This document shows, piece by piece, positions 7,676 to 51,263 of a DNA stretch of 64,000 nt. The notes beneath the pieces were generated by a model. The model worked only from the letters and a program-made list of their open reading frames with translations, had not been told where the DNA came from and made no database searches. Within the stretch, counting starts at the first letter, position 1. Each line of letters opens with the position of its first letter. The translations under genes were made by a program, and so were the position numbers. The DNA comes from Gordionus sp. m RMFG-2023 (lineage: Eukaryota > Nematomorpha > Gordioida > Chordodea > Parachordodidae). The DNA is taken from assembly GCF_954871325.1 (NCBI RefSeq), contig NC_088776.1, positions 61,590,954 through 61,654,953 of the forward strand. The letters run 5' to 3'.

Positions 7676-7696
7676 CTGGAACAACAGCATCATCAA
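7676..7696 (-). other. Candidate micro-exon, 21 nt, phase 1-1, VVPG type
   Basis: On the minus strand the segment is preceded by a T/A-rich acceptor ending TTATATTAG and followed by the donor GTGATAATG. Entered in phase 1 it reads DDAVVP and ends with the single G that starts a Gly codon across the junction. The equivalent site in R1 copy c has the same length and phase and the same last codons with different first ones. I infer an internal coding micro-exon. There is no transcript evidence, and a conserved non-coding repeat core is the alternative. Confidence 0.42.
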
Positions 7697-8000
7697 CTAA
7701 TATAAATAGTGATAAAATATATATAATTATTAATTAAAATATTTAAAAAGATAGATTAATAATTTGGGAAATTTCTTTGGACAGTTTAAAGCAATAATTT
7801 ACATAAGTCATAACATGAGTGTTATAGAGATTGAATGTTTTCGATTTAAATTTAATAGTCTAAATAAATAGTAATTTTAAGATTTTGTTACTAATTAGAT
7901 ATGTAATTAAACTACCTATTGTTTCTAAAATTTCAGAGCCTATGTGCCAGCGTCTACATGAGCGAGAGTGGTAGGAACAGTTTATATCCTATTTTTTTGA

Positions 8001-8052
8001 GGGGGTAGGGGGTAAGCTAGGTTAATGGGGATAGGATAAATTTTTTGGGGGG
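8001..8052 (+). other. G-rich tract, possible G-quadruplex
   Basis: Four runs of 4-6 Gs (8001-8005, 8008-8012, 8027-8030, 8047-8052) lie within about 50 bp of otherwise AT-rich DNA. The tract is inside the extra sequence that distinguishes R1 copy a from copies b and c. Spacing is within the range used for quadruplex prediction, although one loop is long. Confidence 0.4.
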
Positions 8053-8650
8053 TTATCTATTATATTTTTAGATGAAATAGGACAAAATTTATTGCTGTAT
8101 AAATTTAAATTAATTTTATTATAGTATTATTATAATACAATTCATCGACTTATATTGCAAACTATCATACACATTGTTTTCCAAATAAACATTCCTTTTA
8201 AATGTAATTTAAAAGGTTTAGATATTTCAGCAAGCTCATAATTCCATAATAATTAATTCATTGTAAATAATGGGTTTAAATTGAATTTATTATCTAAAAA
8301 ATAAATTCTTTATATTCACCAAATATAGTTGGTAGTAGAGATAGATTAATTTAAGTTATCCTTTATAGGTGGAGAAGATATAGGTATTTACTTTGAACCT
8401 TTTTCCAGTATATTCGACATAATTCTGTATCAAAAGTAAATTTAAGTATCTGTTTTATAGTATTTGGATTTGAGCTTAGGAAGTTTCTCTTAAGATCATA
8501 GGCAGCTATCAAATTCTTCAGGAATATTAATTATGCTGAATGATGTGGGGAATGAAGATGTACAGAGCTTTGATTAAAGGGCGATTTGGTACCAAAAGAA
8601 GGAAGAATTTTTAAATTAGAATAGTTTAGAGATGCGAAAATGGTCGAAAA

Positions 8651-9479
8651 TTATATGTTATTAAAATTTAGAATAGTTATTTGTTTACAATAAAGTTAAA
8701 TTTATTATCTGCAGTGTTTCTCATCAAAAATCAGAAAATTTTTAATGAAAAAAAAAACGAAAAGAATCAAAACAAAAATAAAAAAGGTAGGAATAGACAC
8801 TGGAAACCTATTAAAATTGAAAATGGTTAATCTAAATAAGTAAAAGAGTCAAACTAAGTTAGAAAATATCCGTCCAATAAAAAAGATAAATAAATAAAAA
8901 GGGAAAATTATTCCTATTCAAAAAAGGAAAACAATTCTTTTTCCTTTTAGAAAATTTTTGCCATATAGCCTAAATCTTAATCCAATAGAGATAAAAAAAA
9001 AAACTTTTCCAATAAAAATATTTTATCAAAATTCCAATTTTAAAAAAAAAGAAATTTGTTAGTTTCATAGAGCATAGAGAGAGAAATCATAGGAAAATGC
9101 GAAGATTAATTTTGAAATATGGAGACCTATATTACAAAAATTTATAAGAGGGGAAATGATTAATGAGTAATAATTTTTTTAGTTTATTTTAATTTTATTA
9201 ATAAATTGAATACAAATAAGAATAATAAAAATTTAGAGTGGATTTTTGATGGGATGTTTGCATTTTTTGATTATACCTTTTCATTTTATGATAGGAGCTT
9301 ATCATATTTTGATCGTTTTATTTTATTTTTATTCATATTTACCCAATTTTGAATAGAAATTTTCTTTTTTCTTGAATGAGAAAGTTTGAAAATTCTGATT
9401 CGTTATTAAAGTAAGATTTTAATTTTATAAGAATTCACTATGAAAATAGTTTAATAAACAAGGTTATCAAGTCATTTTT
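8651..9479. other. AT-rich stretch, no gene seen
   Basis: Purine-rich A/G stretches but no recognisable frame, repeat or element end. Confidence 0.5.
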
Positions 9480-10345
9480 AGGTTATATTATTTAAAAGAT
9501 TTTATTAACCTCTCCTCGATTAATATCTTTATTAAAATTATTCCTTATTATATTGATTGTTTAATATTTATAATTCTATAATTTAAATCATTTTTTTATG
9601 CTTAGAGAATATAATATAATTTTAAGTTACCAGCAGCAGCAGCATTTCTTACTATATATATTTTTTAATTTTATGTGTAGTTAAAAAACAATGGTAATTT
9701 ATAATATCTGATTTAGGATACCCTCCATAGTATACCATCTCGTATAAAATCAAAGATGAAAGGTTTTATATCAGAATGTGTTTTTATACATTTTTGTATA
9801 AAACTTTTATTTCTATATATATATATACGAGAAGAAAATTTTCAACTATCTCCTATATAAAAAAATAAAGATCAATGAATTTATACTAGATTGTTATATT
9901 TTTTGATAATTTTTTAAATATTGTATTATTTGTAAAAAAAACATGTGCAATTTAAACACTAAGTAGGATTCAATTTAATCAGTTGTAATTACAATTCAAT
10001 TAGCATTATAATGATGTGCATATCAATATATTGTTTTTAGTTTTCGATTAATATTGATAAAACCATATTGTAAAAAATAATAAAATATATTGGAGCAATA
10101 ATTTGGAATTAATTTAATTTGATTTTATCAACTATTTTCAATAAATATAATAAATCCTTATTAATATCATAATAATACTAATTGAATGATTTGATTATAA
10201 ATATATAAAAATGCCTCTTTTCTGATTAAAAAAAAACTGATTCAAAATATATGAACAATTAAAAATTATTACTTCGTGTAAATATAATTAATAAAATGAA
10301 AGTTTTACACGAGCTTTAAAATATATACTAGCTTAGGTAACCCCA
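9480..10345. repeat. Tandem duplication T, left copy
   Basis: It aligns with 10,370-11,090 along its length with many small indels. Landmarks are GAGAATATAATATAATTT, the block around TAGGATACCCTCCATA, AACACTAAGTAG, and ATTGATAAAACCATAT. The two copies are separated by only about 25 bp. Each carries one 21-nt candidate micro-exon on the minus strand. Confidence 0.7.
9631..9651 (-). other. Candidate micro-exon, 21 nt, phase 1-1
   Basis: Minus strand: the acceptor ends ATATATAG and the donor is GTAACTTAA. In phase 1 the segment reads RNAAAA plus the first base of Gly. The duplicate at 10,535 has the same length and phase with signals kept, but about 9 of 21 bases differ, which is more than in the flanking DNA. 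That is expected of a fast-evolving exon, although a GCT triplet slip could also have contributed. Confidence 0.42.
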
Positions 10346-10369
10346 CTCCTATATCTCGAAAATATTTTT

Positions 10370-11090
10370 TTTTAATAAATCTATTATTGATTTAAAATAT
10401 TTTATTTGGCTTGATTTTTCCATTAACGATATATTATTGTTTTTATATTTTTCCTAGTGTTTAGATAGTTTATATTTATGATTGGTTTTTAATTATTTTT
10501 TTCTGCTTCGAGAATATAATATAATTTAAAGTACCTGCTTCCACAGAATTTTCTCCTATAAATATAATATTAATTTTATATGTAGTTAATAATGTTTATT
10601 TAATAGCAATTCATAATATCTGAATTAGGATCCCCTCCATAATATACCACCTAGTATAAAAACAAAGATTTAAGGATTTATACAATAAAAATTTTATTTA
10701 GTATTATAATTATTTAAACTGGGAGAGAAATGAATTTATAATAGATTGTGATTTAAACAAAATTGTATTATATGTAAATAAAGATTTAAGCACTAAGTAG
10801 AAATCAATTTTTTTTTCCATAACAGAAGTAAAAAATTATATATTTTGAAATTACCATTCAATTATCAGTTATGATGTGTATATCGATATATTATTTTTAG
10901 TTCTGGAGAAATATTGATAAAACCATATTTCTCATTTTAAAACAATATTGTTTGACAAATAATTTTGAATAATTTTTCAGAATTGAGAAATTTTGTTTCA
11001 TTAACCTTTTTCCATAAATATAATATATCTTTATACAAATCATTATAATGCTAATTGAATGCTGAATTCAAATATATAAATATTTATGAT
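10370..11090. repeat. Tandem duplication T, right copy
   Basis: Second copy of the unit at 9,480-10,345 (see that entry for shared landmarks). It is shorter by roughly 100-150 bp through scattered deletions. Confidence 0.7.
10535..10555 (-). other. Candidate micro-exon, 21 nt, phase 1-1
   Basis: Minus strand: the acceptor ends TATTTATAG and the donor is GTACTTTAA. In phase 1 the segment reads ENSVEA plus the first base of Gly. It is the positional counterpart of the segment at 9,631 in the other half of the tandem duplication. Confidence 0.42.
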
Positions 11091-11499: not shown

Positions 11500-12560
11500 C
11501 CCGCGGGCCCAAGGTTTGCATACTAGCAGAACTTAAACTATTACCTTAAGATAAATTTCTGTGTTCAAAATGATTCGGAATTTGGGCGGCTATTAAACTT
11601 CGATTTATTATATGGTTTATTTCTATATGGCGTTGCTGTTGCCCTTGACTATATATACAACTTGATTTGCTTTTAATACATCCATAAGGCTGAAGACACA
11701 ACATAGCCGTAATCCAATGGGTATTATCAGATTTTCGTCTGATAAAAGATTAGCAAGGTTACGAGTTGGAAATGTTTCTAACCATTTATGATCACCAAGT
11801 CTATCAGTTGATTGGAGGAGTTGAATGCAATCTAAAGGTAGATTTATATATATCTATTTGTTATTTCGAAATTAAAGGCGATAAAAAATTTCTGTTTATT
11901 TGTATTGATGATATATGAAAGTTATTTGGTATAGCCTTCTATTTGTTAATTGTGTTGCGTCATCTAATAAAAGATCGATAAGGCATATGAAGACTGAAAT
12001 CATAGAATTGTTTGTTAATCTGGATAATAAAAATGATGACAGATAAAAGATAGAGTTGCTAAAAGTTTATATCGCCTAATTTAAAAGGTAACTTAGCGAG
12101 AGTTTAGGTTTATGTTCATTTGTAAATTTGTCCTTAATTTTTGATATGATATTGTTATTTTTAAAAAAAGATGATGATCTGAAAATGTGCAAAAATTTTG
12201 TTATATATAGGCATTTACGTATTAAAAATAAATTTTGGTGTTCCTATAAATGGCATAGATGTGGTACATGCTGTAAAAGCTTTTAAAGACGTTACGAATT
12301 TATGACTTGGCACTAATAACTAATGGGGCTATCGGAATCAATAAATTTATGGCCTTCTAAAATTGATGGCTTAATATATAATTAAATAATTTAGTAATGT
12401 TAAGTATGACGTGTGACCGGTAGCTTGGGAATTGGTTTCCAAGTATTTTAAAACGCTAGGTACATTAGCTGAGAAGTCACAGACAGTCCCATTGTCTAAA
12501 TAACACAGATTAAGTTCTAGGTTAAAATTATGTTAAATTTGGTTAATGAGATGATGGATG
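11500..12560 (-). pseudogene. LINE relic, reverse transcriptase and C-terminal region (YLDDGT family)
   Basis: On the minus strand the region near 12,477-12,545 reads LCYLDNGTVCDF, close to the W-YLDDGT catalytic block of a non-LTR reverse transcriptase family common in invertebrates. Further along, 11,640-11,840 is open and contains STDRLGDHKWLETFPTRN and LLSDENLIIPIGLRL, matching the region after the polymerase in that family, where a block of the type LLSDEALRIAVGLRLG occurs. Between them the frame is broken many times. One catalytic Asp appears as Asn. Base composition is clearly richer in G+C than the surroundings. Related scraps lie at 1,770, 35,722 and 46,460. Family assignment rests on remembered motifs, not on a search. 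Confidence 0.6.
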
Positions 12561-14715: not shown

Positions 14716-14730
14716 CTGGAACAACATCTT
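14716..14730 (-). other. Decayed VVPG-type micro-exon site, 15 nt
   Basis: Minus strand: the acceptor side ends AAATGGCAG and the segment reads EDVVP in phase 1, but the donor is GA instead of GT. It sits next to R1 copy b where copies a and c have their intact sites, so I read it as a dead member of the same set. Confidence 0.35.
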
Positions 14731-16229: not shown

Positions 16230-17400
16230 TTTAGGACTCCTGCCAATCTGACTTAAATTATTCTATCCATTCTTTCAAGATTACTATTTAGGGACGTTGC
16301 TAAAAAGTTTTAAAAATGCTGTGTTTTGAAGCTGATAATTAGCTAGTTTATGGTTTATATATATTTGATATTAATTGCTTTCGGTTAATTGGAGAGATAT
16401 CATGTTTTAGAATATAGGTGCCAAAATAAATCTTTTTGAGTTATACTGAATTTAAGTTTCAGTTTCTATTTTAAAATTATAATATTCATCTGTCATTTAT
16501 ATAATTACCTGGAACAACTTGATCACCTACTAAAACAAATATTGTGAAAATAAATATAATTATTAATGAAAAAAAATAAAATGGTAGATAATAATTTCCG
16601 AACAATCTTTGAACAGTTTTTCTTTAAATTGAAATAATATAACGGGTTCTGGATAAACCATAGCATGAGTTTTAAAGAGAGCGCATGTATGCATTGTTTA
16701 ATTTAATGATCTAAATAAATAGTAATTCTAAGTTTTTGTTATTAATTACAAATATAAATTATAACTACCTATTGTTTCTAATCATTCATAGCCTAGGTGT
16801 CATGTGGCTGGTAAAAATTTTTATTCTTAACATTATGTGGACTGTAAGATAGATTAAAGAAGGAGTAGGAGAAATGATAATTTACTTTGAATTGTTTTAC
16901 AATATATGTATTCGACATAATTTGCCAAAGTAATTTTCAATATCTGTTTTATTAGATTTGAATATGAGTTTCTAAAGGTGTTTCTGCTCCAGAGATCATA
17001 GGCTGCTATACAAGATAGGAAAACTGCAGAATATGTTAATTGCTGAGTGATATGGGGAGGGAAGATCTAGACTAAAGAGCTTTGATAAAAGGCAACTTGG
17101 ATCCAAAGAAGAAAAGAATTTTTAAATTAGGATGCGATTACTTTGAAGATATCTTCCTAATTTTAACAATATTTTATGTGTATATAAAAATTGGCTAATA
17201 AAAGTGCGTAAAATATTTTGGATGAAGAAAGAGTTTTAGATAAAATGTCTGATGAGCAAGTATTTTAATATATTTTTGGTTAGTAAAGATGAACAGAATT
17301 CACATTTTCTAAAATTAAATTTAAGAATTCTTTTTATGTAAATTTTTATTTTCTATTGTTTGTCCTGACAATAAAATTTAAGACCTAGGGTCTCTCATCT
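16230..17400. repeat. Dispersed repeat R1, copy c
   Basis: Third copy, matching a over both halves and b over the right half. It ends just before the DIRS-like fossil. Copies b and c are about 0.4 kb apart and share more detail with each other than with a. Confidence 0.65.
16509..16529 (-). other. Candidate micro-exon, 21 nt, phase 1-1, VVPG type
   Basis: Minus strand: the acceptor ends ATTTGTTTTAG, a good pyrimidine-rich 3' splice site, and the donor is GTAATTAT. In phase 1 it reads GDQVVP and then the first base of Gly. Length, phase and the end of the peptide match the site in R1 copy a. The first residues differ. Confidence 0.45.
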
Positions 17401-17554: not shown

Positions 17555-20500
17555 GATATCATGGTCCGTGCACCAAGACATGCACGTCAACCCAATCAGA
17601 ATATGTTAGCTAGTCAGAACCCAGCTTTAGGAGACGCGATAGATGAAATAACGCCTAATAATTCGCTGGAAGTGCCGCCCTGTGATTCAGGTTTAGCCGC
17701 AATGATGTCAGCCATGCAAGCCATTTCTGCGCAAATGGTCGCGCTCTCTTCGAGGGTAGACAAAACAAAGCAACGATATCGTTCATCTTCTGCCCATAGA
17801 AGCGCAACGTCGACTCAGCGAGGTCGAGATAGCAGAACACCAAAGCCATCACCCCCGCCGCGTGTGCCACCTGCACTGCTCAATGCCGAAGAAAGATACG
17901 CCAAACTAACCAAAGTCCAGGCCGGCCTTAACCAAGATTTGGCGGAACCCCGCTACAAAACAAGATCGAGATCGTCATGAAATCAAGCATATCCAGGACG
18001 TTCTTGACCTGCTTTCGGTAGATTCAGGCACCAGACTCATAGATGTCATGACCAAAAGAATTAGAGTTCTAGCACTTGAGATACACTGGACTGGTCAACG
18101 GCAAATAACAATGACTTGTCATATCAGGAGAAATTCCTTTGTGGTGAGGAAATCAAAGTTGTTTATGAAACACAGCTTTATTACAGAGGCTCGGGCTATT
18201 CACGTCTTGACGCCAAAGGCTTGAAAAGAAGGAGACGACCGCCTCCCGGGGCAAGAAAAGGAAGTAGCTCTCACTCAGACTCTTTCGTCTCTTCCTCTTC
18301 TCTCCTCTATCTCTTTCTCTTCTTCCTTCCCATCTACCTATGCTCCACCCACAATTCCCAAAGGCTCTTTATATGTCCACCCCCTCAACAGCAAATATTC
18401 ACAGGATTTGACAATCAATAATCCATCGGCCCGAAAAGGAGGTGCAGTGCATTTCCCAAACTTGCTGGCCACGGTAAATAGATACCTGCGGGAAGCATCA
18501 ACTGTTCTCTCCTGATGATGATATTAAGGTGATTCCTGAAGCTAGATACCGAGCAACAATAATCATTCTCCTGTTCCGGATCTACCTGATGCCAGTCCCT
18601 TTGCTGCAACACATTTGCATGTTTCTTCCTTTCTTTCCAAAGATTCAGGCAATCCCGAATGGCGGATTTCCAACGCCACTACAGCAACCTGGTCTTCGAG
18701 CAGGGATAGTAGCGATAGTCTGCTAACGTGCCTCGTCTCTGAATTAGAGCATTCTATCTTTAGTGAGAACAACGATCATGGTATGATCATGTAGGGTCAA
18801 CATCAATTCAGAACTTACCCGCTATCCTCGATTAGATTGGCAACGTGAATACGCAGGCCAACTTCATGGACGAGCAATTAGAAGCATTGCCTAGCCTTAA
18901 AATAAGCACAGCAAGGTTTACACCTGAACCGTTAATGTCCAAATTTACCAGAAAAGTGGCCACCCGAGGATTTCGGCCTCGCTTGGACCATCTTAAGATC
19001 AATAATAATAACAAACATTTCATAGCTCTCCAATTGCTAGAAAATACAGAATCATCATTCGCCAAATATGGAAGCAAACATTATTGAGCTTACCAATAAC
19101 GGGCATATTTATTGGCCGCTCTATGTTATACCAAAGGCTAACGGCTCCCCTAGGGTCATCAGCGAATTTTCGGAAGTATTTAAGAATTTCTTTCACTATC
19201 CCTTCCGCTTAAAATCGATCCCTATGTCTAACAAACTAGACCAAGCAAAAATCGCATGTAAAATTAATATCAAATCTGCGTTTTTATCGGTCTCTCTGGC
19301 CACCCAAGTAAGAAGGTTCTTTGCATTTGAGTTTAATGGAACCTGCTATGCTTACAAAGTACTCCCCATTGGGATATCTTATAATCCATATTGTTTACAG
19401 TCTACCATCTTAGACGTCTATTCCAAAACCAACAGGAAAGCAAATTACAACGTATACTTGAATGACATCCTTATCTTCGGGAGACAATGCGAATGATATA
19501 AAGTGGTCCACTCATCAAGAAGGTTGGGGCATCGAGATCTCTACGGGAAAATCTATCCTTGGTCCTACCCCCCCCCCAACCAAAAAAAAACGTACCTTGG
19601 AATCCCAACCAACCTTGAGGCAAAGACTATATCCGCAGACACCAATACTAGACGGCGGTCAAGAAATGCCTATAAATTTTCAAAAGTCAGTCATACCTAC
19701 ATTTATGTCGGAATCTCGCTGCTAGATTATTAGGAGTAATCAACCATTATGCGAACACGATAACATGCATGTCGAAACTATACTCCCCTTATTACGGAAC
19801 CATGAATAATGTTAACCTCGCCCCCATCGATACCTTCTAGTCTTTCGAAACGCATCCAATATCATTGAAGAATTTTAAACACCCCTAAGTATACTATATT
19901 ATGCTAATAATACTGTTTAGACAGATGCCTTATATTCCCATATCGGCATCTCGTTCTGGGGGTATCAAAATATGTCAGTATCATTCCAAGAATTTAGTCT
20001 CCTATTTATCGTTCCGTAATATGCTATCAACCATATAAACGCTAAAGAAGTCATAGCGGTAGGAATTGGAGCAATCATGGACCTGCACAAGGACATGGAT
20101 CACCTCATTATTTTCACTGACTCCAGCGTGGCTTACTATTCCTAAGAAAGAGGGTTCCAGATCCCCCTCAATCGAAATTGTTCTATCCCAAATCCTTTTC
20201 AAAATTGGCCTTAAGAACTTCACTGCCATCTTGCAAAACATACAAAGGTTCCCCATAGATAAAAACGCAGACGAACCCTCGAGAGTCTGCATGGCATAAA
20301 GAGAACAATTAAACCTCTTTGGTGGCCCCGTCTTACAAACGCCCATATTACTTTAACGTGAAGAAATTATCCCATTGATTCCATATACACCATCCTTAAT
20401 ATCTGGATTTTCTATCCCACCGAGAGACAACAGTACAGAAATATACAACTGGAGCAACATCAGTATTCACTCCGGAGATATAACTTAATCAAAAATTAAG

Positions 20501-20739: not shown

Positions 20740-21085
20740 TTTGTTTTAGCTATAATTTCATTTTTTGTTTGATAAGGAAATAATTAATCTTATGTTAAAC
20801 CCAAGTCATATATGGTAACCCAGATAATTATATTATATATAGTATAATACCTTCAATAGGCTTCTCAATAACATCGTCCACTTGCATATATTCTGCATAT
20901 ATAAAAATTTATTAAAAATTAATAAAAATATAAATATCGTTGAATTAATAATGTGATGATTCGTCATTGCTAAAGGGAACTCAGCTTTTCTAATCTTTAT
21001 GTCAACCTAAAGTGGTTATGAAAATTATAATTTATCATTATAAAGTTTGTTTTTTCTGTTAAATAGGGATATTAAATTACATATT
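20740..21085. repeat. Module d, copy 1, left part
   Basis: Aligns with 24,396-24,720. Shared landmarks are the micro-exon site, CTGCATATATAAAAATT, AAGGGAACTCAGCTTT and a T-rich block after it. The copy continues beyond the inserted hAT element at about 23,690. Confidence 0.65.
20851..20892 (-). other. Candidate micro-exon, 42 nt, phase 1-1
   Basis: Minus strand: the acceptor ends TTTTATATATGCAG and the donor is GTATTATAC. In phase 1 it reads YMQVDDVIEKPIE and ends in the first base of Gly. The paralogous segment at 24,523 is 24 nt and reads DIQVGDE. The 18-nt size difference is a multiple of three, and both splice signals are kept in both copies. Confidence 0.45.
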
Positions 21086-21089: not shown

Positions 21090-23665
21090 GATAAATAATC
21101 AAAAATATTTTAATTTATTTAGACAAAACGAGGTATAAAATAATTAAAATATTTGATTGGATTCAAATAATATGAATCTAATTGAATAATTACGAATACG
21201 AATAATAAATTATTTGTTTTGTCTGAATACTAATAATCATTTATTCGATTCGAATAAAACGAATTATTCGTAATATTTAATAAATTGTTTAATAAATCTA
21301 ACATTTGTTGACCTGCCAATCTGACAGGTGATGTGTTTGTGTTTATAAAAATTCTAGCACAAATTTAAAAATTTATGAAGTGAAAATTTATATTTTATTT
21401 GCCACATATTTTGAATCTCACGAAAAGAATATTTTTTGAATCTCATAATAAATTATATTAAAAATTAAACAAACCAGAGGTATAAAAAATATATTACATC
21501 TGCTAACCTAATTATGTTAGAGGAGAATGCTTCTGATAAAATTATGCTTGATGTTGAAGATGAGAAAATTTCCTAACAAAAGAGAGCAATTATATGGGAT
21601 CAATATCAAATCCTTAAAGACGGTGAAAAGGCTGCTTGCAATCATTGCAAGAGTATTATAAAATGTAAAGGCAAGACAACATCTCCTCTTATTAATAATT
21701 ATAATAGGTTTCATTCACACCTTAATAAAATATAATAAAATAGACATTTTTTTAAAGTCTAAACCAAATTCTTCAAAAAAAATTAATTTTAAGGATAATT
21801 TATTAAAATTATTTATAAATAATAATATACCTTTTAAAATTATTAATTCAAATGATTTTAAAAATTTTATAAGTGATCTTGATTGTTCTGTAAAATCAAT
21901 ATGCTCCAATACTCTTAAATTGCACATGTATAATACATTTGCAGAAAAAGAACAGTTGGTTAAGGAAATAATATCTAATAATAAAAGTCAGATTAATTTT
22001 TCATCTGACATTTGGACTAGCCCAACACAGGTTCTTTTTTAAGGCTAACAGCCCATTTTATTGATGATAATTTTAAAGATAACATAATTTTGGATGTCAG
22101 TCCAATAAATGAAACACATTCAGGTTAAAATATATTTAAAGCCTTTGTTAAAATAATTAAAAATTATAATTTAGAGAATAACATTTTTTTATATAACAGA
22201 TAATGCAACTAATAATAAAAATTGATACATTTTTTTTAAAATATCGATTAATAAAAATAGGGCACATTCGATGCTTTGCCCATGTAATTAAATTAATATC
22301 TAAAGAAATTTTAAAAATTTTAGATCCTTCAACTCTAAAACTAAGAAACATTATTAGAATGATTCGTAATTCCCCTAAAAAATTTAATTTATTAAAAAAT
22401 ATATGTAGTACCCTACACCCTCTACTAAATTTTTAAAACCAAAATTGGATTGTAAAATAAGGTGGAATAGCACCTACCAAATGATTGAAAGGGGCTTAGT
22501 GTTAAAGCCTGCTATAACAAAATTAGTTAATGAAGTAATAACTACTATTAAAATTCTTCAAGAAAAACAAATATCAGAGGTAAACTAAAATTTATAATAA
22601 TAATATAATACTTTGATAACGTATAGGAAGAATGGGAGGATCTTATAAAAATTAAAGTTATCCTATTGCCTTTATATGAAACTACAAATATAGTAAGTGG
22701 GGAGAATTATCCTACTTATAATTTGGTTATACCTTATTATATTTTACTTGAACATCTAAAAAATGAAAAACCTGGTTTCCATAAATCCTTTAACAATAGT
22801 TTCAAAGTATCATGTGATAAATTGTTGGGCTATTATAATTTAATTGCCGATGATGCAATAATAACCACAAAATTAGATCCCAGACATAAAGTAGAATATT
22901 TTAAATCAATATCTCTTGATTATGATATTGATATATCCAAGTTAATGGGCAAATTTAAAGAGATTTACAAAAGATATACAGGTATTTAATTTACCCCCAT
23001 TTAAATATGATTTTATTTAACAAATAAGGATAAAATTCAACAAAACAGGTTAGACATTGTTTTTAAACAAAATAATATTCAACTGTGTGAAATAGATTTT
23101 TATCTGAGTGAACCAAGAGCAAAGAGTGATTCTGACCCGTTAATGTGGTGGAAGGCAAATGCATATCGGATCCCCATACTCTCGAAAATGGCAAGGGATT
23201 ATCTATCTATACAAGGAACATCAACTGCTTGTGAAAGGCTTTTCTCAGTTGGAACTAATTTATTGTCAAAAAACCGCATGTCATATAAGGAAGAAAATAA
23301 GAAAAAGTCTTTGCATTAAAAATTGGCTTAAATTATAAATTAAATTAATAATATACATTTTTATTTTGTTTATAACTTGATTATATATTATTTATTATCA
23401 GATTATTGATTACATTAAATTATAATTTTTTCTGTTTAAAATCAAATTTGTAATAAAAAAATTTGTCAATATATTTGAGTATGATTTATTTTATTAAAAA
23501 AATTAATTCGAATTATTTGAAATATTCGAATAATTCGAATCGAATACAAATAGTAGATTTTATTATTCGTACGAATTCAAATAGTAAATTATTCGATTCG
23601 TTTAAACGAATTGAATATGAATAATGCACTATTCGATTCAAATTCGTTTTTGAATAGGCCTAGTA
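21090..23665 (+). mobile_element. hAT transposon inserted into module d
   Basis: The element interrupts module d. Its right end reads inward as TAGGCCTATTCAAAAACG, followed by many copies of a TTCGAAT-type motif, which recur near the left end (about 21,150-21,280). Such subterminal repeats are typical transposase-binding regions of hAT elements. The left terminal repeat is not recognisable, so the left boundary is approximate and the 8-bp target duplication cannot be confirmed. Confidence 0.65.
21514..23320 (+). pseudogene. BED-finger hAT transposase, pseudogene
   Basis: Plus strand. It starts at an ATG near 21,514 (MLEENASDKIM). A BED-type zinc finger follows (WDQYQILKDGEKAACNHCKS with a downstream F-H-S-H-L, about 21,590-21,725). 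Next come the catalytic-core pieces: SDIWTSPTQ near 22,005, ITDNATNNK near 22,193 and RCFAHVIKL near 22,270. A long clean frame of 107 residues lies at 22,666-22,989 with TTKLDPRHK. The C-terminal dimerisation domain lies at about 23,090-23,270 (DPLMWWKANAYRIPILSKMA, TSTACERLFS). Order and spacing fit a full hAT transposase. At least six frameshifts or stops make it inactive. Good preservation of the C-terminal half suggests a fairly recent insertion. Confidence 0.85.
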
Positions 23666-24395: not shown

Positions 24396-25330
24396 CATGG
24401 AACAAAACTATACCAAAATAAACCGTTGAAAAGAAACTTCAAAGAAAAAAAACCTAATAATTAATCGTATGTTAAATATAAAATATAGCAAAACAGATAA
24501 TTTTATTATATAATGTATAGACCTTCATCGCCCACTTGAATATCTTCTGCATATATAAAAATTAATTAAAATATTAATATACATCTAATTAAAAATATGA
24601 TTATTCGTTATTGTTCAAGGGAACTCAGCTTTAATTATATTTGTATTAATCTAAGGTGTATATTATAATTATAATTATCATAATGTTTGTTTTTTATTCT
24701 GTAAAAATTTATGGTATTGCAAGTGGGGAAACTTGAACAAAAGTTGGGGTTTGAGTCGATAATATTTTGATAATATATAAGAATGAGAACTGCACTAAGT
24801 TTGGGAATAAGTCGATAATATTTTGATAATATATACGAATTTAATAATTTTATTTTCTTTAAAAATTCAATAATCAATTTTGTATACATCAAACAGTTAT
24901 ATATACTTAGTCAAATAAATTAATTCTCATATGTTAAATTGATGCCTCAAAATAAAAAAAACATTTAAATGGACATGTAAAGTCAAAATATAATATAAAA
25001 TTAATGCTTTTAGACAGTAAAAAAAATAAAAATTTACATATCAATTGAAAATAACAATATATTATTTTACAATAATATAACAATAGAGATATTAAAAAAT
25101 AATTTGGAAATAAAATATTGAGGGAAAATCTCAGGGAAAAAAAATTTTAAGCGGAAATGAATCCGAAAAAAAACTTTTGAAAATAACTATTATTATATAT
25201 TTAAGATATTTTGAAATAAGTACGGTTCTGACAAGCGTATAGCGGGAATTTAAAAATTTGTTTATCGGTGCTTATTAATTTTTTGTAAAAGGAAAATCAT
25301 GTATAATAATAATTATAGAAACCAAATTCT
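24396..25330. repeat. Module d, copy 2
   Basis: Uninterrupted copy of module d, about 0.95 kb. Inside it, 24,745-24,845 holds a small tandem duplication of roughly 66 bp (shared string AGTCGATAATATTTTGATAA). Confidence 0.6.
24523..24546 (-). other. Candidate micro-exon, 24 nt, phase 1-1
   Basis: Minus strand: the acceptor ends TTTTATATATGCAG and the donor is GTCTATAC. In phase 1 it reads DIQVGDE then the first base of Gly. It is the shorter counterpart of the 42-nt segment at 20,851. The peptide is acidic, like the other members. Confidence 0.45.
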
Positions 25331-27604: not shown

Positions 27605-27771
27605 TTAGTTGATTATATTATATAAAATAAAACCTAAATCATTATTATGATGAATTTCTTCATCACTGCCAAGAAAATCAAGATCCCATTCATAATCAGG
27701 ATCATCACCTCCAATAGATATCGTATCACTTCCTAAAGAGCCCTCATCTTCACTATCATTTTCTCCCATTT
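27605..27771 (-). CDS. Candidate acidic coding exon, 167 nt
   Basis: Minus strand. A T-rich acceptor ends TTTCACATAAAG, after which phase 1 gives an open, strongly acidic reading that begins EMGENDSEDEG, passes through GGDDPDYEWDLDFLG and SDEEIHHNNDLG, and ends at a TAA. An AATAAA hexamer follows about 60-70 nt after the stop. Codon use is far less AT-biased than its surroundings. Two readings are possible: a terminal exon entered in phase 1, in keeping with the micro-exon at 28,197 upstream of it, or a first exon starting at the ATG (good context, A at -3 and G at +4) and leaving at G|GTTTTA after NNDL. I do not recognise the protein. An acidic N-terminus of a piggyBac-like transposase is a further alternative, but no transposase follows. 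Confidence 0.4.
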
Positions 27772-28196: not shown

Positions 28197-28220
28197 CTGG
28201 AACAACGGAGTCTCTATTAT
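28197..28220 (-). other. Candidate micro-exon, 24 nt, phase 1-1, VVPG type
   Basis: Minus strand: the acceptor ends ATCATATTTTAG and the donor is GTTATAAAA. In phase 1 it reads NRDSVVP then the first base of Gly. The right-hand flank resembles that of R1 copies a and c (TATTAA...AATAATTT), so it is an outlying member of the same module family. It lies 0.4 kb upstream of the acidic exon. Confidence 0.42.
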
Positions 28221-29030: not shown

Positions 29031-29048
29031 TTTCATTGCCTGGTTTTA
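29031..29048 (-). other. Candidate micro-exon, 18 nt, array type
   Basis: Minus strand: the acceptor ends TTAAATAAATAG and the donor is GTCTCAAAT. In phase 1 it reads KPGNE. It belongs to the partial array monomer at the start of unit 1 and is matched at 37,062. Confidence 0.38.
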
Positions 29049-31253: not shown

Positions 31254-31277
31254 CAGGAACAACTTGATCATCTTGTT
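31254..31277 (-). other. Candidate micro-exon, 24 nt, phase 1-1, VVPG type
   Basis: Minus strand: the acceptor ends CTCATATTTAG and the donor is GTATTTATTA. In phase 1 it reads QDDQVVP followed by the first base of Gly. The counterpart in unit 2 (39,396) keeps the reading (QDEQVVP) and donor, but its acceptor AG has become AT. Confidence 0.45.
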
Positions 31278-31310: not shown

Positions 31311-31446
31311 AAATAAAAATAATATTAAATAAAAATAATATTAAATAAAAATAATATTAAATAAAAATAATATTAAATAAAAATAATATTAAATAAAAAT
31401 AATATTAAATAAAAATAATATTAAATAAAAATAATATTAAATAAAA
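31311..31446. repeat. 16-bp minisatellite, about 8.5 copies
   Basis: Perfect tandem copies of AAATAAAAATAATATT. The same position in unit 2 (about 39,450-39,475) has only one to two degenerate copies, so the array expanded after the duplication. On the minus strand it lies just upstream of the acceptor of the candidate micro-exon at 31,254. Confidence 0.9.
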
Positions 31447-31514
31447 AGATAAAGTAGAACCTAAATTGTAATTAAAACATTGATTCAAAATTATTTTTCA
31501 CAGGTTTAATAGGA

Positions 31515-36340: not shown

Positions 36341-36961
36341 TCATATAACTAAGTTAAAAGGAAAATAATATAATAAATTAAATCCAAACCCATAAATTAA
36401 AAATATTTTAATGAACATTTATATAAAAATAGGAAACCTGTTAAGGCTTGCCATGGATAAAATTTTCCTATTTATTTAAAATTAAAATAGAAAATAGAGA
36501 ATTAAAACATAAATAAATATTATTTTGAATTGAATAATGAGTAATCTTAGTATTATCAAATTAGTGAAATTTAAAACAAAGACTGATTAAACGTATTTAA
36601 TATTACTAAGATATTAGTTGTGAAATTTCTAACCACCTATTACGAAAACAAACTAATAAATAAAAGCTCTCTGATCTGCTTGATTCAAAGACTTTATTTT
36701 CTCATCAAAATTGTTATTTTAGTTCAGTAAGTTATTTAAAAATTAATTAAGATTTGATTTGGATTTTCAAAAAAGGAGACGTTTTTAACATGACCAAAAA
36801 AACCGGCCAAAGAAGGACAGGTTTAGATAAGGCAACTTAAAAAATATAAGCTATATTTATTAGGTATCTTAATTGCGTAAAAAGATTCTTATTCTGTTAA
36901 TTTAATTATACGCTACATAATTTATTCTCCTAAGCACACTTATAAATCTTTTTATTATAAT
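36341..36961. repeat. Tandem-array monomer before unit 2
   Basis: A full monomer of the type found at 42-52 kb, from the TATAACTAAGTTAAAAGG anchor to the next anchor. It contains the array-type micro-exon site at 36,438. A monomer tail (AAATAAAGTGCGCTACATTT) also lies at 35,665-35,720, so the array is older than the segmental duplication. Confidence 0.7.
36438..36467 (-). other. Candidate micro-exon, 30 nt, array type
   Basis: Minus strand: the acceptor ends TTAAATAAATAG and the donor is GTTTCCTA. In phase 1 it reads KFYPWQALT then the first base of Gly. It is 12 nt longer than the usual 18-nt array member, a multiple of three. Confidence 0.4.
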
Positions 36962-37061
36962 TAGATGTCCAATCACTAAGTTAAAAGGAAAATAATTTAT
37001 AATAAAATTAAATTAAATTCAAACTCATAAATCAAAAAACATTTATATAAAAATTAGAGAC

Positions 37062-37079
37062 TTTCATTGCCTGGTTTTA
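37062..37079 (-). other. Candidate micro-exon, 18 nt, array type
   Basis: Unit 2 counterpart of 29,031 with the same 18 bases, acceptor AAATAG and donor GTCTCTAA. It reads KPGNE in phase 1. Confidence 0.38.
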
Positions 37080-37939
37080 CTATTTATTTAAAATAATAAT
37101 AAAAAATAGAGGATTAAAACAATAATATGTACTATATTTAATTAAATAATTTTAAAATTATACTCAAAAATGGGGAAATTTATATCAAAGGTTGACTAAA
37201 TGTATTTATAAAAATTTGAAGTAAGTACTGGTTGCCAGATGTCACGATTTAACGTTGATTCTCACAATTTCATACCTAATTTTTTTGCTTAAGAACGTTT
37301 TCTCACACCTAACACTTTTCTCACGTTTTTAAATATTTTTTAAAAACAAATGTAAAATTTTAAATTTATTTTATTTTATAATTTTTAAAAAAAATTGTAA
37401 AATTTGTTTATAATCCAGCTAACCAATCATATTCAATGATCAATTTGCCACAACACAAATTTAATATAAAAAAGTTTATCAAGTAATATGAATTTAAATA
37501 ACTACTTATATCTTTTATGGATTTTATAAATCTTAGATTACAATTCGTAAAATATAGGTGAAATAAATTAAATGTACATTTATTCTCAATCTATAATTAG
37601 CCTTTTAACTTAGATTAAAGCTTATTAACAAATAAATTAAGAAATAGCCAAAAAGATTAATTGCTAGAGTTGATTATTAGATTCAGACCCTTTTTATAAA
37701 ATAATTGAGTAAAATTATTTTATAATAAAAATTCAGTTCAGTAGATCAGATATCAACATAAATATATTTTTTAAAAAATGCTTATTTATGATTTGATTTA
37801 TTCTGTAACTTCTTAAAAACCTCATTTTATCCAAAATTTTAATATAGATACTCATCCACAATAATTCTCAATATAAAAAAATTGAAATATAAACAAACAA
37901 AAAAGAGGAAAATATATCAGGTAAGATAAAAGTTGAGAG

Positions 37940-38585
37940 CAAAATTATGAATAGCTTAAGCAGCATTCAGGGTCAACTGTAAAATGTAGCATATGTGTGT
38001 TACAAAAAGCCATAGTGAAGATTATGATATAATCATACATATGAAATCTACAAACATAAGCTTGCAAATGAACAATCTAGCACCAATATTTCTATATCAT
38101 CATACCTAACTAAATATTCTAAGAATGTAACCTTGTCTGTTATTGCTGAAACAACATTTATATATCATCATAAAACATTCCCAAGTTATATAAAGGCTAA
38201 TTGTTCGAGCAATCTATACTGTTTTTCCTAACTATGAAATTACATCAATATTTTTATGTGGCAGAATATAAAGGCTCTAAAATAATACAAAATATTTTGG
38301 CACAAATAACAAATGCAATTATAAATGATCTAAAAAACAATATCATCGAATAAGGGTAATATAAAAACATTTCCCTTATTACTTAGATACTTCAAAAAAA
38401 AGAATCAAATCAGTGTTAAATAACTTATTTTGCATCTGACAGTGAAACCTCTAAAGACATATCTAGTTGCTTGCTAGAACGTGGGACATTATAATATTGC
38501 TAATGTAACAGCGTATTGTGCAGAAAACGCATCTTTAAACTTTGGGAAAAAAAAATAATATTATACCAATAGGTTGTATAAAAGA
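37940..38585 (+). pseudogene. hAT transposase relic, copy 2
   Basis: Duplicate of 29,930-30,480 with the same fragments (SVIAETTFIYHHK, AYCAENASLNFGK) and about 145 bp more near 38,245-38,390 (reads ITNAIINDLKNN in one frame). The residues AENASLNFGK are closer to the usual hAT sequence than those of copy 1. Confidence 0.55.
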
Positions 38586-38760
38586 AAATTTATTATACTA
38601 AATAAATTTAGTGAGAATTCTTTTAAATTGTTTTTTATTTTTCATTTTTTTTAAAATCTATTGGTTTTAATTGTTAACGATATCCAAAAAAACAATTATA
38701 CAAATTTTTATTGTTAATGAACATTCAAAAATAATTTTAGATGTTTCAATTTATTTCGAA
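38583..38760. repeat. 180-bp repeat A, copy 3
   Basis: Unit 2 counterpart of the copy at 30,480. Confidence 0.7.
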
Positions 38761-39395
38761 TTTTTTTTTACCTTCGATAATAATTTTTAAATATTTTATA
38801 TATAAGAAATATATTATTTTGTATTTAAATAAAAAGAAAAAGATAAATATTTGATTTTTGTTTTTATAAAAATAGTTTCATGATTACTATACGTTATAAC
38901 AACTTCTTTATATTAATCTGATGCCTGCCTCAACTAAACATTATGTTGTTCCTAACTAAATATTAATTTTTAATTTAATATAAAATTAATTGCGCTAATA
39001 TTTAATTTGTAGATAATTTGAGTGAGTAAATAATTAGACTGGATTACGGAAAAGAACATGAAAAACAAAGTTGAAACAATCCAATACAATAGTAATAGTC
39101 AACTTAAATGTTAAAAGTCTAAGACAAATTTCCCTTAATTTTTTAAAAAAATATTGTCCGTTAAATTAATTATTTAATTCAAGTATATTAATCTATTTTT
39201 GCTGATTACTACTTATCACTCGTTTGAATATTTTCTCTTTCCTTTAATAATATTTCCAATTTATTGAATATTAATCTCAAATGTTCATATTCAATAGTTT
39301 ATAATAATAATAATTGATTTAAGGCAACTAATCTAACATTTATAATTGTTTGATTTATATTTTATTTTTTTCTTTAAAAGTATTATTATAAATAC

Positions 39396-39419
39396 CAGGA
39401 ACAACTTGTTCATCTTGTT
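39396..39419 (-). other. Decayed VVPG-type micro-exon site, 24 nt
   Basis: Unit 2 counterpart of 31,254. The frame (QDEQVVP) and the donor GTATTTATA are kept, but the acceptor reads CATATTTAT, without AG. Confidence 0.35.
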
Positions 39420-39543
39420 ATAAATATGGGTTAATTTAGTTTTAAATATAATAAATAAAAATAATTTTAAATAAAAAGATAAAGTAGAACCTAAATTGTA
39501 ATTAAAACATTGATTCAAAATAATTTTTCACAGGTTTGATAAG

Positions 39544-39712
39544 ATGCCGCGTAAGGTTAATAGATGTGCCTTGAGAAAATAAGATGTGGAGGAATAGTTG
39601 GTTGTCGCAGTGATGGCAATGTATATTGGAGCATAAACAACAGTACGGACGGATTATGACGATAGTGACAGCTTTGAGGTGAAGGTAGGACTTCATCAAG
39701 AATCCGTGCTGA
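39544..39712 (+). pseudogene. LINE reverse transcriptase fragment, copy 2
   Basis: Duplicate of 31,515-31,695 (MPRKV..., EVKVGLHQESVL), ending abruptly inside the HQESVL block. The sequence after the break matches unit 1 again from about 32,867, so about 1.15 kb was deleted in this unit. Confidence 0.8.
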
Positions 39713-42260: not shown

Positions 42261-42278
42261 CTGCATGGCTTGGTTTTT
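42261..42278 (-). other. Candidate micro-exon, 18 nt, array type
   Basis: Minus strand: acceptor TTAAATAAATAG, donor GTCTCCTAT. In phase 1 it reads KPSHA then the first base of Gly. Confidence 0.4.
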
Positions 42279-43572
42279 CTATTTATTTAAAAAATTAAAA
42301 TATGGATTAAAGGAATAATAAGTATTATAATTGAATTGAATAAAAATAATTTAAGTATTATACTCCTAATAAGGAAATTTAAAACAAAACTGATTAAAAA
42401 TAGTTAATATTACTAGGTCCTCAAGCTGGGTTGTTTATAAGGTCAACAATGTTGTGATAAAACAAGTTTGATATTAGATAGGAACTCTCATAATAAATAG
42501 CGAAAGCAAACTGATAAATAAAGGCTGTCCGATCTGCTTGATTTATGGAATTTACTTTTCTCATCAAAATTATCATTTTAGTTCAGATAGATATTATAAA
42601 AATATTATGAGCTTGGATTTTTTATTTGCATAAAAGGCGGCTTTTTGGAGTCAACTGGAAACTAGATATAGCTGTGGTTACTTAAAATATAAGGCGCGAC
42701 AATTGTTAGGTTCCAAAACTGCTAAGAATAATATTGATTTTGATATTTTAATTTAATTATACGCTACATATTTTATTCTCTTACATACACTAATAAATCT
42801 TTTTATTATAATTAAATGTCCTATAACTAACTTAAAAGAAAAATAATATATATATATATAATTAAATCAAAATGCATAAATTAATATACCTCTAAAATAT
42901 AATTCGATAATTGAATTGTCTTGTTTGCCTATTCATTTATAATTAGAATAAAAAATAGAGGATTAAATCAATAATAAGTGTTATATTTGAATTATGAAAT
43001 GACAGTAAAGTATTATAATCCGAATTAGAAATTTTAAACAAAGACTGACTAAACCTATTTAATGTATACTAAGCCTTCAAGCTGCTTTATATAATTTAGG
43101 GGAAAATAGTTTTGATAAAATACAACTTTGATATTAGAAGTGCAATTTTTCACCACCTATAGCGAAAGCAAACTGATAAATAAAGGCTCACTGATCTGCT
43201 TATTAATGATACTTTACATTTCTCATCAAAATAGTATTTTAGTTCAGATAGATATGTAAAAATCACATGCGAATAGATATTCATAAAAGGCGGCGTTTTC
43301 GGGGTGGTCCAAAATAACCTGCCAACGGCTTATCCTAACACAGATATAGCAATTGTTACTTAAAAAATATAAAGCGACATTTATTTAGTACCATAACTGA
43401 GCAGAATGATTCTGATTTTGTTAGCTTAATTTAATTATACACAACCTATTTTATCATACACTTATAAACTTTTTTTTATAATTATATGTCCTAAAACTTA
43501 CCTAAAAGAAAAATAATTTATAATAAAATCCAAAATAATTAATAAATAAACCTTTGTATAAAAGTATTAGAG

Positions 43573-43590
43573 TTCCATTGCCTGGTTTTT
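43573..43590 (-). other. Array-type site, donor lost
   Basis: Phase 1 reading KPGNG-like (KPGNE frame kept) with acceptor AAATAG, but the donor position is CT instead of GT. Read as a decayed member. Confidence 0.25.
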
Positions 43591-44533: not shown

Positions 44534-46018
44534 CAAAGACTGACTAAACCTATTTAATATTACTAGGCAAGTATATAATTTAAGCCAATAATGTTTTGAT
44601 AAAACAATATTTATATTAGACGTGAAATCTCTCACATATAAATAAACCAAACTGATAAATAAAGACTCTATCGATTCAAGGACCTAATTTTTCTCATCAA
44701 AATTGTCATTATAATTCAGATATTTATGTAAAAATCACATGAGCTTGCCAAGAACGGCCAGCCAACGATCGTCTGTAAAAAACAAATAGAGCATTGGATA
44801 CCTAAAAAAAATTATGGGACATCTATTATGTTTAATAATTTAGCCAAATGATTCTGATTTAATTAATTTAATTTAATTATACACCACATATTTTATTCTT
44901 TCACATACACTTATAAAATAATTTATATAATTACATATCCTATAACTAATTTATACAAAAAATAAAAATAATTCATAATAAAATTAAATTCGAACCCATA
45001 AATCAAACCTATATATAATCTTCGGTGAGTTGCCTTGACTGGTTTTTTATTTTATTTAAAATTAAAAATAAAGGATTAAATCATTAAGAAGTATTATGTT
45101 TGAATTAAATAATGACAGTAATTTTAGTATTATAATCCGAATTAAAGAAATTTAAACAAAGACTGACTAAACCAATTAAATATTACTAGACCCTCAATCT
45201 TGGTTATATATAATTTGAATAGCCAATATAGTTTTTATAAGACAACTTTATTATTAGATGTGAAGTCTTTCACTATCTATAGAGAAAGCAAACTGATAAA
45301 TAATGGCTCTCTGATCTGCTTTATTCAGGGAATTAACTTTTCTCATCAAAAATCTCATTTTAGATCAGATAGTCATGTAAAAATTAAATAAGCTTATATT
45401 TTTGAAGGTGGCATGGGCCTAAAAACGGCCAGTTAACGGCCGACTGTAATTCATATATAGCTATGGCTACTCAAAAAATATTGTGCGCGATAACTTCGGA
45501 GAATGATTCAGATTTTGTTTGTTAAATTTAATTAAACACTACATATTTTATTCTCTTATTTACACTTATAAATCTTTTTTTTATAAATACATGTCCTATG
45601 AATTATTTAAAAAAAAAATAATGTATAATAAAAATAAATCCATATTTATAAATCAATAAACCTTTATAAAAAATTTGGAGAGTTACATTGCCTGGTTTTC
45701 CTATATATTTAAAATTAAAAAAAAATAATAGAGTATTAAAACAATAATAACTATTATATTTGAATTGAATAATTCGAGTATTATAGTCCATATAAGGGAA
45801 ACTTATAACAGAGACTGACTAAACTTATTTAATATCATAGTTTTAATAAAACAACTTTGATATTTAGACGTTTAGTCTTTCACCACCTATAGCGGAAGCA
45901 AACTTAAAATTAAAGATCTCTGATCTGCTTGATTCACTTACTTTACTTTTCTCTTCAAAAATGAAAAAATTAAATCCAAACCCATAAATCAGTTAACCTT
46001 TATATAAGAGTAAGAGAC

Positions 46019-46036
46019 TTGCATTGGTTGGTTTTC
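46019..46036 (-). other. Candidate micro-exon, 18 nt, array type
   Basis: Minus strand: acceptor AAATAAATAG, donor GTCTCTTAC. In phase 1 it reads KPTNA. Last monomer before the interruption at 46,077. Confidence 0.38.
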
Positions 46037-48179: not shown

Positions 48180-48209
48180 CTGCAGAGTCGAGTAATAGTA
48201 TATTTTTCC
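48180..48209 (-). other. Candidate micro-exon, 30 nt, array type
   Basis: Minus strand: acceptor TGAATAAATAG, donor GTCTCCGAT. In phase 1 it reads KNILLLDSA then the first base of Gly. 12 nt longer than standard members, as at 36,438 but with unrelated extra residues. Confidence 0.4.
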
Positions 48210-48737: not shown

Positions 48738-48755
48738 TTGCATTGCCAGGTTTTA
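48738..48755 (-). other. Candidate micro-exon, 18 nt, array type
   Basis: Minus strand: acceptor ATATACATAG, donor GTGGCAAGA. In phase 1 it reads KPGNA. Confidence 0.38.
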
Positions 48756-49396: not shown

Positions 49397-49411
49397 GTTT
49401 ACGTGGCTTTC
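49397..49411 (-). other. Candidate micro-exon, 15 nt, array type
   Basis: Minus strand: acceptor AAAAAAATAG, donor GTATCCTAA. In phase 1 it reads KPRK. 3 nt shorter than standard, reading frame maintained. Confidence 0.38.
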
Positions 49412-49921
49412 CTATTTTTTTTTTAAATTAGAATAAAAAAGATAGGATTAAAACAATAATAAATATTTTTTAGTATTATGATCCAAATAAAATAAATTTA
49501 AAACAAAGACTGACTAAACGCATTTAATATTATTAGACTCTCAAACGTGGTTTTATATTCTAATAAAGACTTCATGATCTGTTTGTTCGAGGATTTTACT
49601 TTTCTCATCAAAATTGTCTTTTTAGTTCAATAAGTTATATAAAACTCTCTTGAGCTTGAATTTAAGATTTCCATAAAAGGCAGCGTTTTCGGCCTGGCCA
49701 AAAACAAGCTGCCAAGAGCCGACCGGAATGCAGATATAGCTATGGCTACTTAAAACATATAGTGCGTCACATTTATTAGCTATCATGGATCATTCTGATT
49801 TTGTTAGTTTAATTTAACACACTACATATTTTATTCTCCTTATATTTATAAAATTTTTTTACATGTCCTATTACTAAGTTAAAATTATTTACAAATCAAA
49901 AAACATTTATATTTCGGAGAC

Positions 49922-49939
49922 CTATATGACTTGGTTTTT
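49922..49939 (-). other. Candidate micro-exon, 18 nt, array type
   Basis: Minus strand: acceptor TTTTAAAAAATAG, donor GTCTCCGAA. In phase 1 it reads KPSHI then the first base of Gly. Confidence 0.4.
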
Positions 49940-50578
49940 CTATTTTTTAAAATTAGAATAAAAAATGGAGGATTAAAACTATAATAAATATTATATTTGA
50001 ATTGAATAATGAGAATAATTATAGTATTATACTCCAAATTAAGGAAATTTAAAACAAAGACTGATCAAACATATTTAATGTTATTAGACCCTCAAACTTG
50101 TTTATATATAATTTAGGCCAATAATATTTTGATAAAACAACATTGATATTAAACTTGAAGTCTCTCACCACCTACCGCGAAAACAAACTGATAAATAAAA
50201 GGTTATCTGATTTCCTTGATTCAAGGATTATTCGTTTTTTATCAAAATTTTATTTTTAGATCAGAAAGTTATATAAAAATCTCTTGAGCTTAAATTTTTT
50301 ATTTCCAAAAGTGGCGAGGCCAATAAGAACCTGCCAAGAGCCGACCGAAACACATATATAGCTATGACTACTTAAAAAATCACGACATTTACTAGGTGAC
50401 ATAACTCTGAAGGTTTATTCTGATTTTGTTAGTTTAATTTTATTATTCACTACATATTTTATTCTCCTTACATTTATAAATCTTTTTATTAATTACTGTC
50501 CTATTACTAGGTCAAAAGGAAAATTATTTATAATAAAATTATTTAAAATCAAAAAAACATTTAAAAAATAATTGGTAC

Positions 50579-50596
50579 CTGCATGGACATGTTTTC
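50579..50596 (-). other. Candidate micro-exon, 18 nt, array type
   Basis: Minus strand: acceptor TTAAATAAATAG, donor GTACCAATT. In phase 1 it reads KHVHA then the first base of Gly. Confidence 0.4.
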
Positions 50597-51245
50597 CTAT
50601 TTATTTAAAATTAGATTATAGAGGATTAAAAAAATAATAATTATTATATTTGAATTTAATAATTAGAATAATTTTAGTATTATGATCCAAATTAAATAAA
50701 TCTAAAACAAAGACTGACTATTTTAATGTTATTAGACCCTCAAACTTGGTTATATATAATTTATGCTAATAATGATTTGTTAAAACAAAATTGATATTAG
50801 ATGTGAAGGCTCTCATAACCTATAGCGTAGGCAAACTGGAAAATAAAAGATTTATGATCTGCTTGATTCAAGCATTTTACTTTTCTCATCAAAATTGTAT
50901 TTTTAGTTGAATGAGTTATATAAAAACCTCTTGAGCTTGAATTTATGATTTCCATAAAAGGCAGCATTTTTAGCATGGCCAAAAACTACCACCTGCAAAT
51001 AGCCGACCGAAGGAGAGATATAGCTATGGCTACTTAAAACATATAGTGCGCGATAATTCTTAGATATCAAAACTGTGTAGAATCATTCTGTTAATTTAAT
51101 TTAATTACACACTACATATTTTATTCTCCTTACATTTATAAATCTTTTTATTATATTTACATCTCCAATAACTAAGTTAAAAGGAATATAATTTATAATA
51201 ATATTATTTTCAAATCAAGAAAACATTTAAATAAAAATAGAAGAC

Positions 51246-51263
51246 CTGTATGGACATGTTTTT
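51246..51263 (-). other. Candidate micro-exon, 18 nt, array type
   Basis: Minus strand: acceptor AAAAAAAATAG, donor GTCTTCTAT. In phase 1 it reads KHVHT then the first base of Gly. Confidence 0.4.

Follow-up and report, generated by a model that had tools for sequence, protein, structure and literature searches.

Can a scatter of segments a few codons long, spread over tens of kilobases of A+T-rich DNA, be the exons of a gene, and if so, of what kind? The question is raised by the minus strand of a 64,000-nt stretch (hereafter the window; contig C2, positions 61590954-61654953), which is situated amid paralogous genes close to an end of its contig (64.4 Mb). A first-pass annotation had pointed there to a set of micro-exon candidates, each bounded by AG and GT, with a length divisible by three and with phase 1 at both ends. 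We confirmed the observation: the pattern exceeds what chance produces, and the comparative test of it is strong. The window probably holds a member of a clustered micro-exon family, most likely a host-facing secreted one: a single long gene, or else a gene next to a second copy that has partly decayed.

Comparative evidence for same-phase micro-exons

The eight peptides named in the first-pass annotation were all located on the minus strand, bounded by AG and GT and open in phase 1 (8/8). A further expectation, that such segments would outnumber those in shuffled sequence and on the plus strand, was borne out in direction, but the excess was mild. Phase-1-open AG-(15, 18, 21, 24, 30, 42)-GT segments numbered 298 on the minus strand, 257 on the plus strand and 224 ± 17.5 in 40 approximate dinucleotide shuffles. 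Because the DNA is so A+T-rich, the raw count is a poor test and taken alone is weak evidence.

We compared paralogous sequence over 200 kb (contig C2, 61.04-61.24 Mb; 20 of 60 pieces) and 4 of the 40 remaining pieces. The 200-kb region contains four colinear copies, designated C0-C3, that match the minus strand of the window from 31.4 to 3.4 kb. They span very roughly 17-47 kb each; copy C0 is inverted relative to the others, and copy C1 carries part of the gene twice. The scan considered AG...GT segments between 12 and 150 nt long that were conserved in 75% or more of the aligned copies and represented by at least three different sequences. A segment was counted as passing when its length was a multiple of three (3n), its copies varied by 3n only and all were open in phase 1. 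Conserved segments passed in 90 of 1071 cases on the gene strand and in 7 of 733 on the opposite one, in line with the proposed excess on the gene strand. Both figures are sums over five reference copies (C0, C1, C2, C3 and the window, with 11, 27, 14, 24 and 14 passes on the gene strand and 0, 4, 0, 0 and 3 on the other) and are not independent, because nested segments and exons shared between references enter repeatedly. For the gene strand the other two phases gave fewer passes than the 90 of phase 1, namely 37 (phase 0) and 39 (phase 2), and phase-1-open segments of length 3n+1 and 3n+2 gave 16 and 33. The contrast was weaker when the window was the sole reference: 14 passes, vs 3 on the opposite strand, 9 at length 3n+1 and 5 at 3n+2. 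Replacing the splice dinucleotides gave a further control: AG/GT segments passed in 58 of 426 cases vs 145 of 4105 for 11 substitute pairs (Fisher p about 1e-15). The highest decoys, GA..TG (44/499) and GG..GT (14/141), we read as overlap with the same exons.

Insertions and deletions support the same conclusion. The claim that copies vary by multiples of three, and neighbouring DNA arbitrarily, held when the interior of 19 C3 exons was compared with the 100 nt outside them, against the other copies: 11 of 12 exon indels were 3n, vs 63 of 520 in the flanks. Across copies of these 19 exons, mismatches affected 1 of 216 GT cells and 23 of 215 AG cells, the low GT rate being partly built in because exons were selected for kept AG and GT. 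G+C content exceeded that of both 45-base flanks in all 29 of 29 exons (19 from C3 and 10 from the window, array units excluded), and summed over C3 it was 0.401 in exons and 0.172 in flanks. Pooling 50 donor and acceptor sites across five copies gave a C/A-A-G|GTA donor and a T-rich acceptor.

Start exon and genomic distribution of the family

The gene appears to begin at 58266 on the minus strand. Its first coding exon (58152..58266, minus) opens with ATG, encodes a peptide that by eye resembles a signal peptide, MNKLFGLHNAMIYVFSICVIIWIFNGSMGRNVKDRPYD, and leaves in phase 1 at GACG|GTAACC. If this exon shares one transcript with the downstream exons, the gene spans more than 50 kb. Each of the copies C0-C3 also has an ATG exon resembling a signal peptide by eye. 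The start exons of C1, C2 and C3 can be read as ending in phase 1 after 118-121 nt; the donor of C0 is ambiguous. The window start exon is 34% identical to that of C3 (E 0.004) and 41% to that of C1 (E 1e-4), and has relatives on the same contig at 76% and 71% identity.

Searches of the whole genome (287,057,807 bases, 267 contigs) placed start-exon matches with E <=0.001 at no fewer than 14 places, three being the queries themselves. Eleven lie on contig C2 at 60.99-61.81 Mb and three on contig C5 at 7.70-8.06 Mb; three weaker matches lie on contig C2 at 55.79, 58.09 and 61.32 Mb. These counts of start exons and genes are lower bounds. The matches on contig C5 form a second start-exon cluster of the same family on a different contig. 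DNA around window position 7676 has 15 genomic matches including itself, 14 of them on contig C2 at 61.05-61.67 Mb. The closest of these besides itself, with 96% identity, is a copy of the exon block around 7.6 kb of the window, located in C2:61460954-61470953 (L029). What the comparisons show is a clustered family of long loci with putative same-phase micro-exons and exon duplication.

Rate of change and exon turnover

Across 13 C3 exon classes (43 exon comparisons, from which the acidic exon and the six additional class III exons were excluded), the proportions of nonsynonymous (pN) and synonymous (pS) differences were 0.176 and 0.178, and flank divergence was 0.147. With bootstrapping over exon classes, dN/dS was 1.02 (0.62-1.77), and the ratio of dN to flank divergence was 1.24 (0.96-1.56). 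Protein change is thus about neutral. A dN/dS near 1 together with conserved sites means that frame and splice sites are held and the protein letters are nearly free. Such a near-neutral ratio may reflect either diversification or relaxed constraint. The start exon is tighter, with pN 0.136 below pS 0.248.

Exon number and length also change. The first-pass annotation had argued that symmetric exons of one phase can be duplicated or lost without breaking a frame, and two cases bear this out: an 18-nt exon present seven times in C3, and an acidic exon of 114, 138, 168 or 210 nt. The seven VVP-type exons of C3 lie within 1.5 kb (L022:1420-2919, minus) and read DDAVVP twice, DDQIVP once and DDHIVP four times, the last four at 187-bp spacing. 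On this repeat structure, the set is a putative exon amplification within one gene, and a very recent one.

Proposed gene and alternative explanations

We propose that the gene would start at the signal-peptide-like exon at 58266 (minus) and run through short exons to about 6.5 kb or beyond, nearly all of them entered and left in phase 1. The predicted spliced product would be a secreted, acidic and probably disordered protein with repeated Val-Val-Pro-Gly, its secretion being judged from the start exon by eye. Because each exon is symmetric, such a protein could change cassette by cassette, through exon duplication, loss and perhaps skipping, with its sequence nearly free to vary. By analogy with schistosome micro-exon genes (MEGs) and aphid bicycle genes, the family most likely encodes secreted proteins with which a parasitic worm faces its host.

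Several observations count against this proposal or qualify it. The search for conserved stops yielded no convincing terminal exon, the E2 exon of paralogue C3 exits in phase 2, and the ratio of dN to flank divergence, 1.24 (0.96-1.56), falls short of demonstrating positive selection. A donor stands at the homologous place in only 10 of 17 units of a tandem exon array described below. Having lost several splice sites, the window copy may be in partial decay.

The same fast change could come from weak constraint if the family made a structural or adhesive product, repetitive and of low complexity, as of cuticle, larval cyst or egg string. We regard this as a distinct possibility, though not the outcome we expect. 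A dN/dS near 1 suits relaxed constraint as well as it suits diversification, and the VVPG repeats and acidic blocks resemble structural repeats; clustering and exon turnover, however, also mark host-interface families, and the sequence decides neither way. The family might also be real and the window copy mostly a graveyard of duplicated exons, little expressed or not at all, which seems rather unlikely. The donor is gone from its usual place in 7 of the 17 array units, the class IV exon has lost its donor, the second class I copy lacks the usual acceptor, a block is duplicated (28.9-31.7 and 36.9-39.7 kb), and the window copy contains transposon pieces; the start exon and most single-copy exons nevertheless retain frame and sites. 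That the VVP segments are instead terminal exons of many short genes, with GGT (Gly) read through to a nearby stop, is improbable. Class I does read on as far as an aligned stop in three of its four aligned copies, and two copies have GGC or GGA as the codon following VVP, but G+C falls sharply at GT, non-3n indels follow class II immediately, and five VVP-type exons succeed one another in the window and in C1 (at least three in C2 and C3). Chance is hardly credible as an account: AG and GT are common in AT-rich DNA and the raw excess over shuffles is modest, but the comparative, indel and G+C evidence contradicts it.

That the locus is a genuine bicycle gene, from an aphid, a phylloxera or a scale insect, is very improbable, even though exon phase and size match and three of six tentative gene models pass the published bicycle classifier (threshold 0.72; scores 0.997, 0.530, 0.269, 0.712, 1.000 and 0.933). 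These models assume a 60-nt last exon, and the classifier does not decide the matter because its result depends on the gene model. The exon peptides, read by eye, contained no CYC motif. Neither Chitin_bind_4 (arthropod cuticle) nor 7tm_6 (insect odorant receptor) had a match in the 287 Mb, though each family was silent in 14 control genomes too, so that these negatives do not prove absence. Carotenoid genes, an aphid marker, gave two weak N-terminal crtI matches under the cut-off and two squalene/phytoene synthase matches, which do not discriminate. The spacing of Hox genes, by contrast, fits a horsehair worm (Nematomorpha), which is probably the source of the genome. Of 12 homeobox matches with E <=1e-8, 11 are on contig C5. 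Three on this contig, at 9.06, 9.09 and 9.15 Mb, are the nearest to Antennapedia; a partial match (14.10 Mb) and one of 63% (4.45 Mb) are set off from them by gaps of 4.95 and 4.6 Mb. Other homeoboxes are also on C5, and all were assigned solely by identity to the query. In Gordionus montsenyensis, the anterior Hox genes are reported to lie about 5.5 Mb from three central ones, with a posterior gene over 4 Mb beyond on that scaffold (PMC11603191). The second anterior Hox gene and the Hox4 duplicate reported there were not found among the homeobox matches here.

Comparison with known micro-exon systems

The likening of this architecture to schistosome MEGs and aphid bicycle genes, made in the first-pass annotation, is apt as regards design. 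The likeness is probably convergent, because the genome looks like that of a horsehair worm; the comparison is one of design and not of protein sequence. Like schistosome MEGs, the family has many very small symmetric exons, with a signal peptide (here by eye) first. In MEGs the signal peptide evolves more slowly than the mature part (PMC4350168), and here too the start exon is more constrained than the remaining exons. The family differs in that its taxon is probably not a flatworm and in that larger exons make up a big share of the known coding length. By number most exons are of 12-42 nt and run from phase 1 to phase 1. In the still incomplete gene models, small exons account for 321 of 757 nt of known coding length in C3; in the window the figure is 531 of 784 nt when the 14 array exons are all included and 195 of 448 nt when they are left out.

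What is called exon phase 2 in bicycle genes is an exon starting at codon position 2 (PMC9168663), which is phase 1 in the terms used here. Internal exons of the present family start at this position as bicycle exons do, with the exit phase of C3 E2 as an exception. Bicycle genes share with it many micro-exons at codon position 2, fast change and a leading signal peptide, the last judged here by eye, and megacycle genes share internal tandem duplication (PMC9168663). It differs from bicycle genes in having VVPG and acidic repeats instead of the CYC motif, and in a genome that is not insect-like. Putative bicycle homologues outside aphids are also described as being without obvious CYC motifs (PMC9168663). 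Bicycle proteins have a saposin-like fold (PMC13041983). The effector families of grape phylloxera are comparable to the predicted family in being large and secreted, with genes duplicated in tandem and, within certain subclades, exons duplicated as well; they differ in organism and in that genes of the largest cluster are mostly intronless (PMC7376646).

Hairworms are parasites of arthropods (PMC10380579). Tentatively, horsehair worms may have evolved, separately from flukes and aphids, a clustered micro-exon family whose arrayed, shuffled cassettes give a secreted, fast-changing protein set for use inside the arthropod host. Our literature search, limited in extent, found no report linking Nematomorpha with micro-exon genes; the one co-mention was unrelated by its title/abstract, and publication elsewhere is possible. 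If transcripts confirm the family, this would be a third animal lineage, again a parasite, with secreted proteins built from many same-phase micro-exons. Why host-facing secreted genes are split into symmetric micro-exons would then become a comparative, testable question, and the family would be a candidate for the proteins that horsehair worms release into their hosts. Such genes are easily overlooked by gene prediction, because no single exon resembles a gene.

Candidate exons of the window

All exons described here are read on the minus strand, and their lengths and sites are those predicted from the alignments. Class I is represented by a 24-nt micro-exon, QDDQVVP (31254..31277), with AG, GT and frame conserved in 3 of 4 aligned copies. 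Its second copy, EQVVP (39396..39413), has the short form found in 3 of 4 aligned copies; its usual acceptor TAG is replaced by TAT, and a neighbouring AAG could serve. A segmental duplication (28939-31679 and 36965-39712, about 89-92% identity) carries the class I exon together with an array-type exon, one copy being without the usual acceptor. Class II, also 24 nt, reads NRDSVVP (28197..28220) in a four-copy alignment in which copy C2 has GC instead of GT. The acidic exon (27634..27771) begins MGENDSEDEGSLGSDTISIGGDD... and has phase 1 at both ends. With the donor common to all four copies, G|GT after ..PG or ..LG, it measures 138 nt in the window, 168 in C1, 210 in C3 and 114 in C2; further in-frame GTs lie inside it.

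Two further micro-exons follow. DIQVGDE (24 nt, 24523..24546) is kept in 3 of 3 aligned copies, and YMQVDDVIEKPIE (42 nt, 20851..20892) in 3 of 3, of 24, 24 and 39 nt; the VGDE exon thus measures 24, 39 or 42 nt. Class III reads VGDQVVP (21 nt, 16509..16529, or 18 nt from 16526), the 18-nt form occurring in 13 of 16 aligned segments. A decayed class IV exon, EDVVP (14716..14730), has GA instead of the GT donor; at three paralogous places the donor is GTAGAA, GTAAGA and GTAGGA. The 21-nt micro-exons ENSVEA (10535..10555) and RNAAAA (9631..9651) are each kept in 7 of 7 aligned copies, and DDAVVP (21 nt, 7676..7696) lies in the surroundings with 15 genomic matches. VMQ (12 nt, 6469..6480; 6 of 8 aligned copies) is a possible micro-exon, very short and weak.

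The exons at 31254, 24523 and 20851 also have shorter nested forms, which are not listed separately. Two groups of candidates were kept off the list: XFFFQ/XVIFP and KIG, which pass the scan but resemble pyrimidine tracts or low-complexity stretches, and QQQRHIEINHIINR (11599-11643) and NSL, which are supported by the L029 and L030 copies only.

Tandem exon array and inserted elements

Between 42261 and 51263 (minus) lies a tandem array of 14 exon-bearing units, very roughly 650 bp each, with an open AG-3n-GT exon in 11 of the 14. From the 5' end of the gene these putative exons are KHVHT (51246-51263), 50579-50596, 49922-49939, 49397-49411, 48738-48755, 48180-48209 (30 nt), 46019-46036, 45662-45700, 43552-43590, 42890-42928 and KPSHA (42261-42278), all on the minus strand. 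Three outlying units at 37.1, 36.5 and 29.0 kb bring the total to 17, of which 14 have an open AG-3n-GT segment. Their array-type exons, also on the minus strand, read KPGNE (37062..37079), KFYPWQALT (36438..36467, 30 nt) and KPGNE (29031..29048). The exon core of the array has two insertions, both of 12 nt. The array looks like exon duplication with ongoing decay.

Mobile elements interrupt the presumed introns. A G+C-rich insert at 18000-20000 (+), at 0.42 vs about 0.25 around it, contains a reverse-transcriptase match (19041-19496) and is, on its composition and this match, a putative retroelement piece in presumed introns. A hAT transposon remnant lies at 23011-23319 (+; Dimer_Tnp_hAT, E 1.2e-21), and no homologue was found for the open reading frame adjoining it. 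An Rfam search of the window gave no match at gathering scores. Within the presumed first intron, at 53567-53890 (-), a weak RT_RNaseH_2 match under the curated cut-off points to a further retrotransposon piece.

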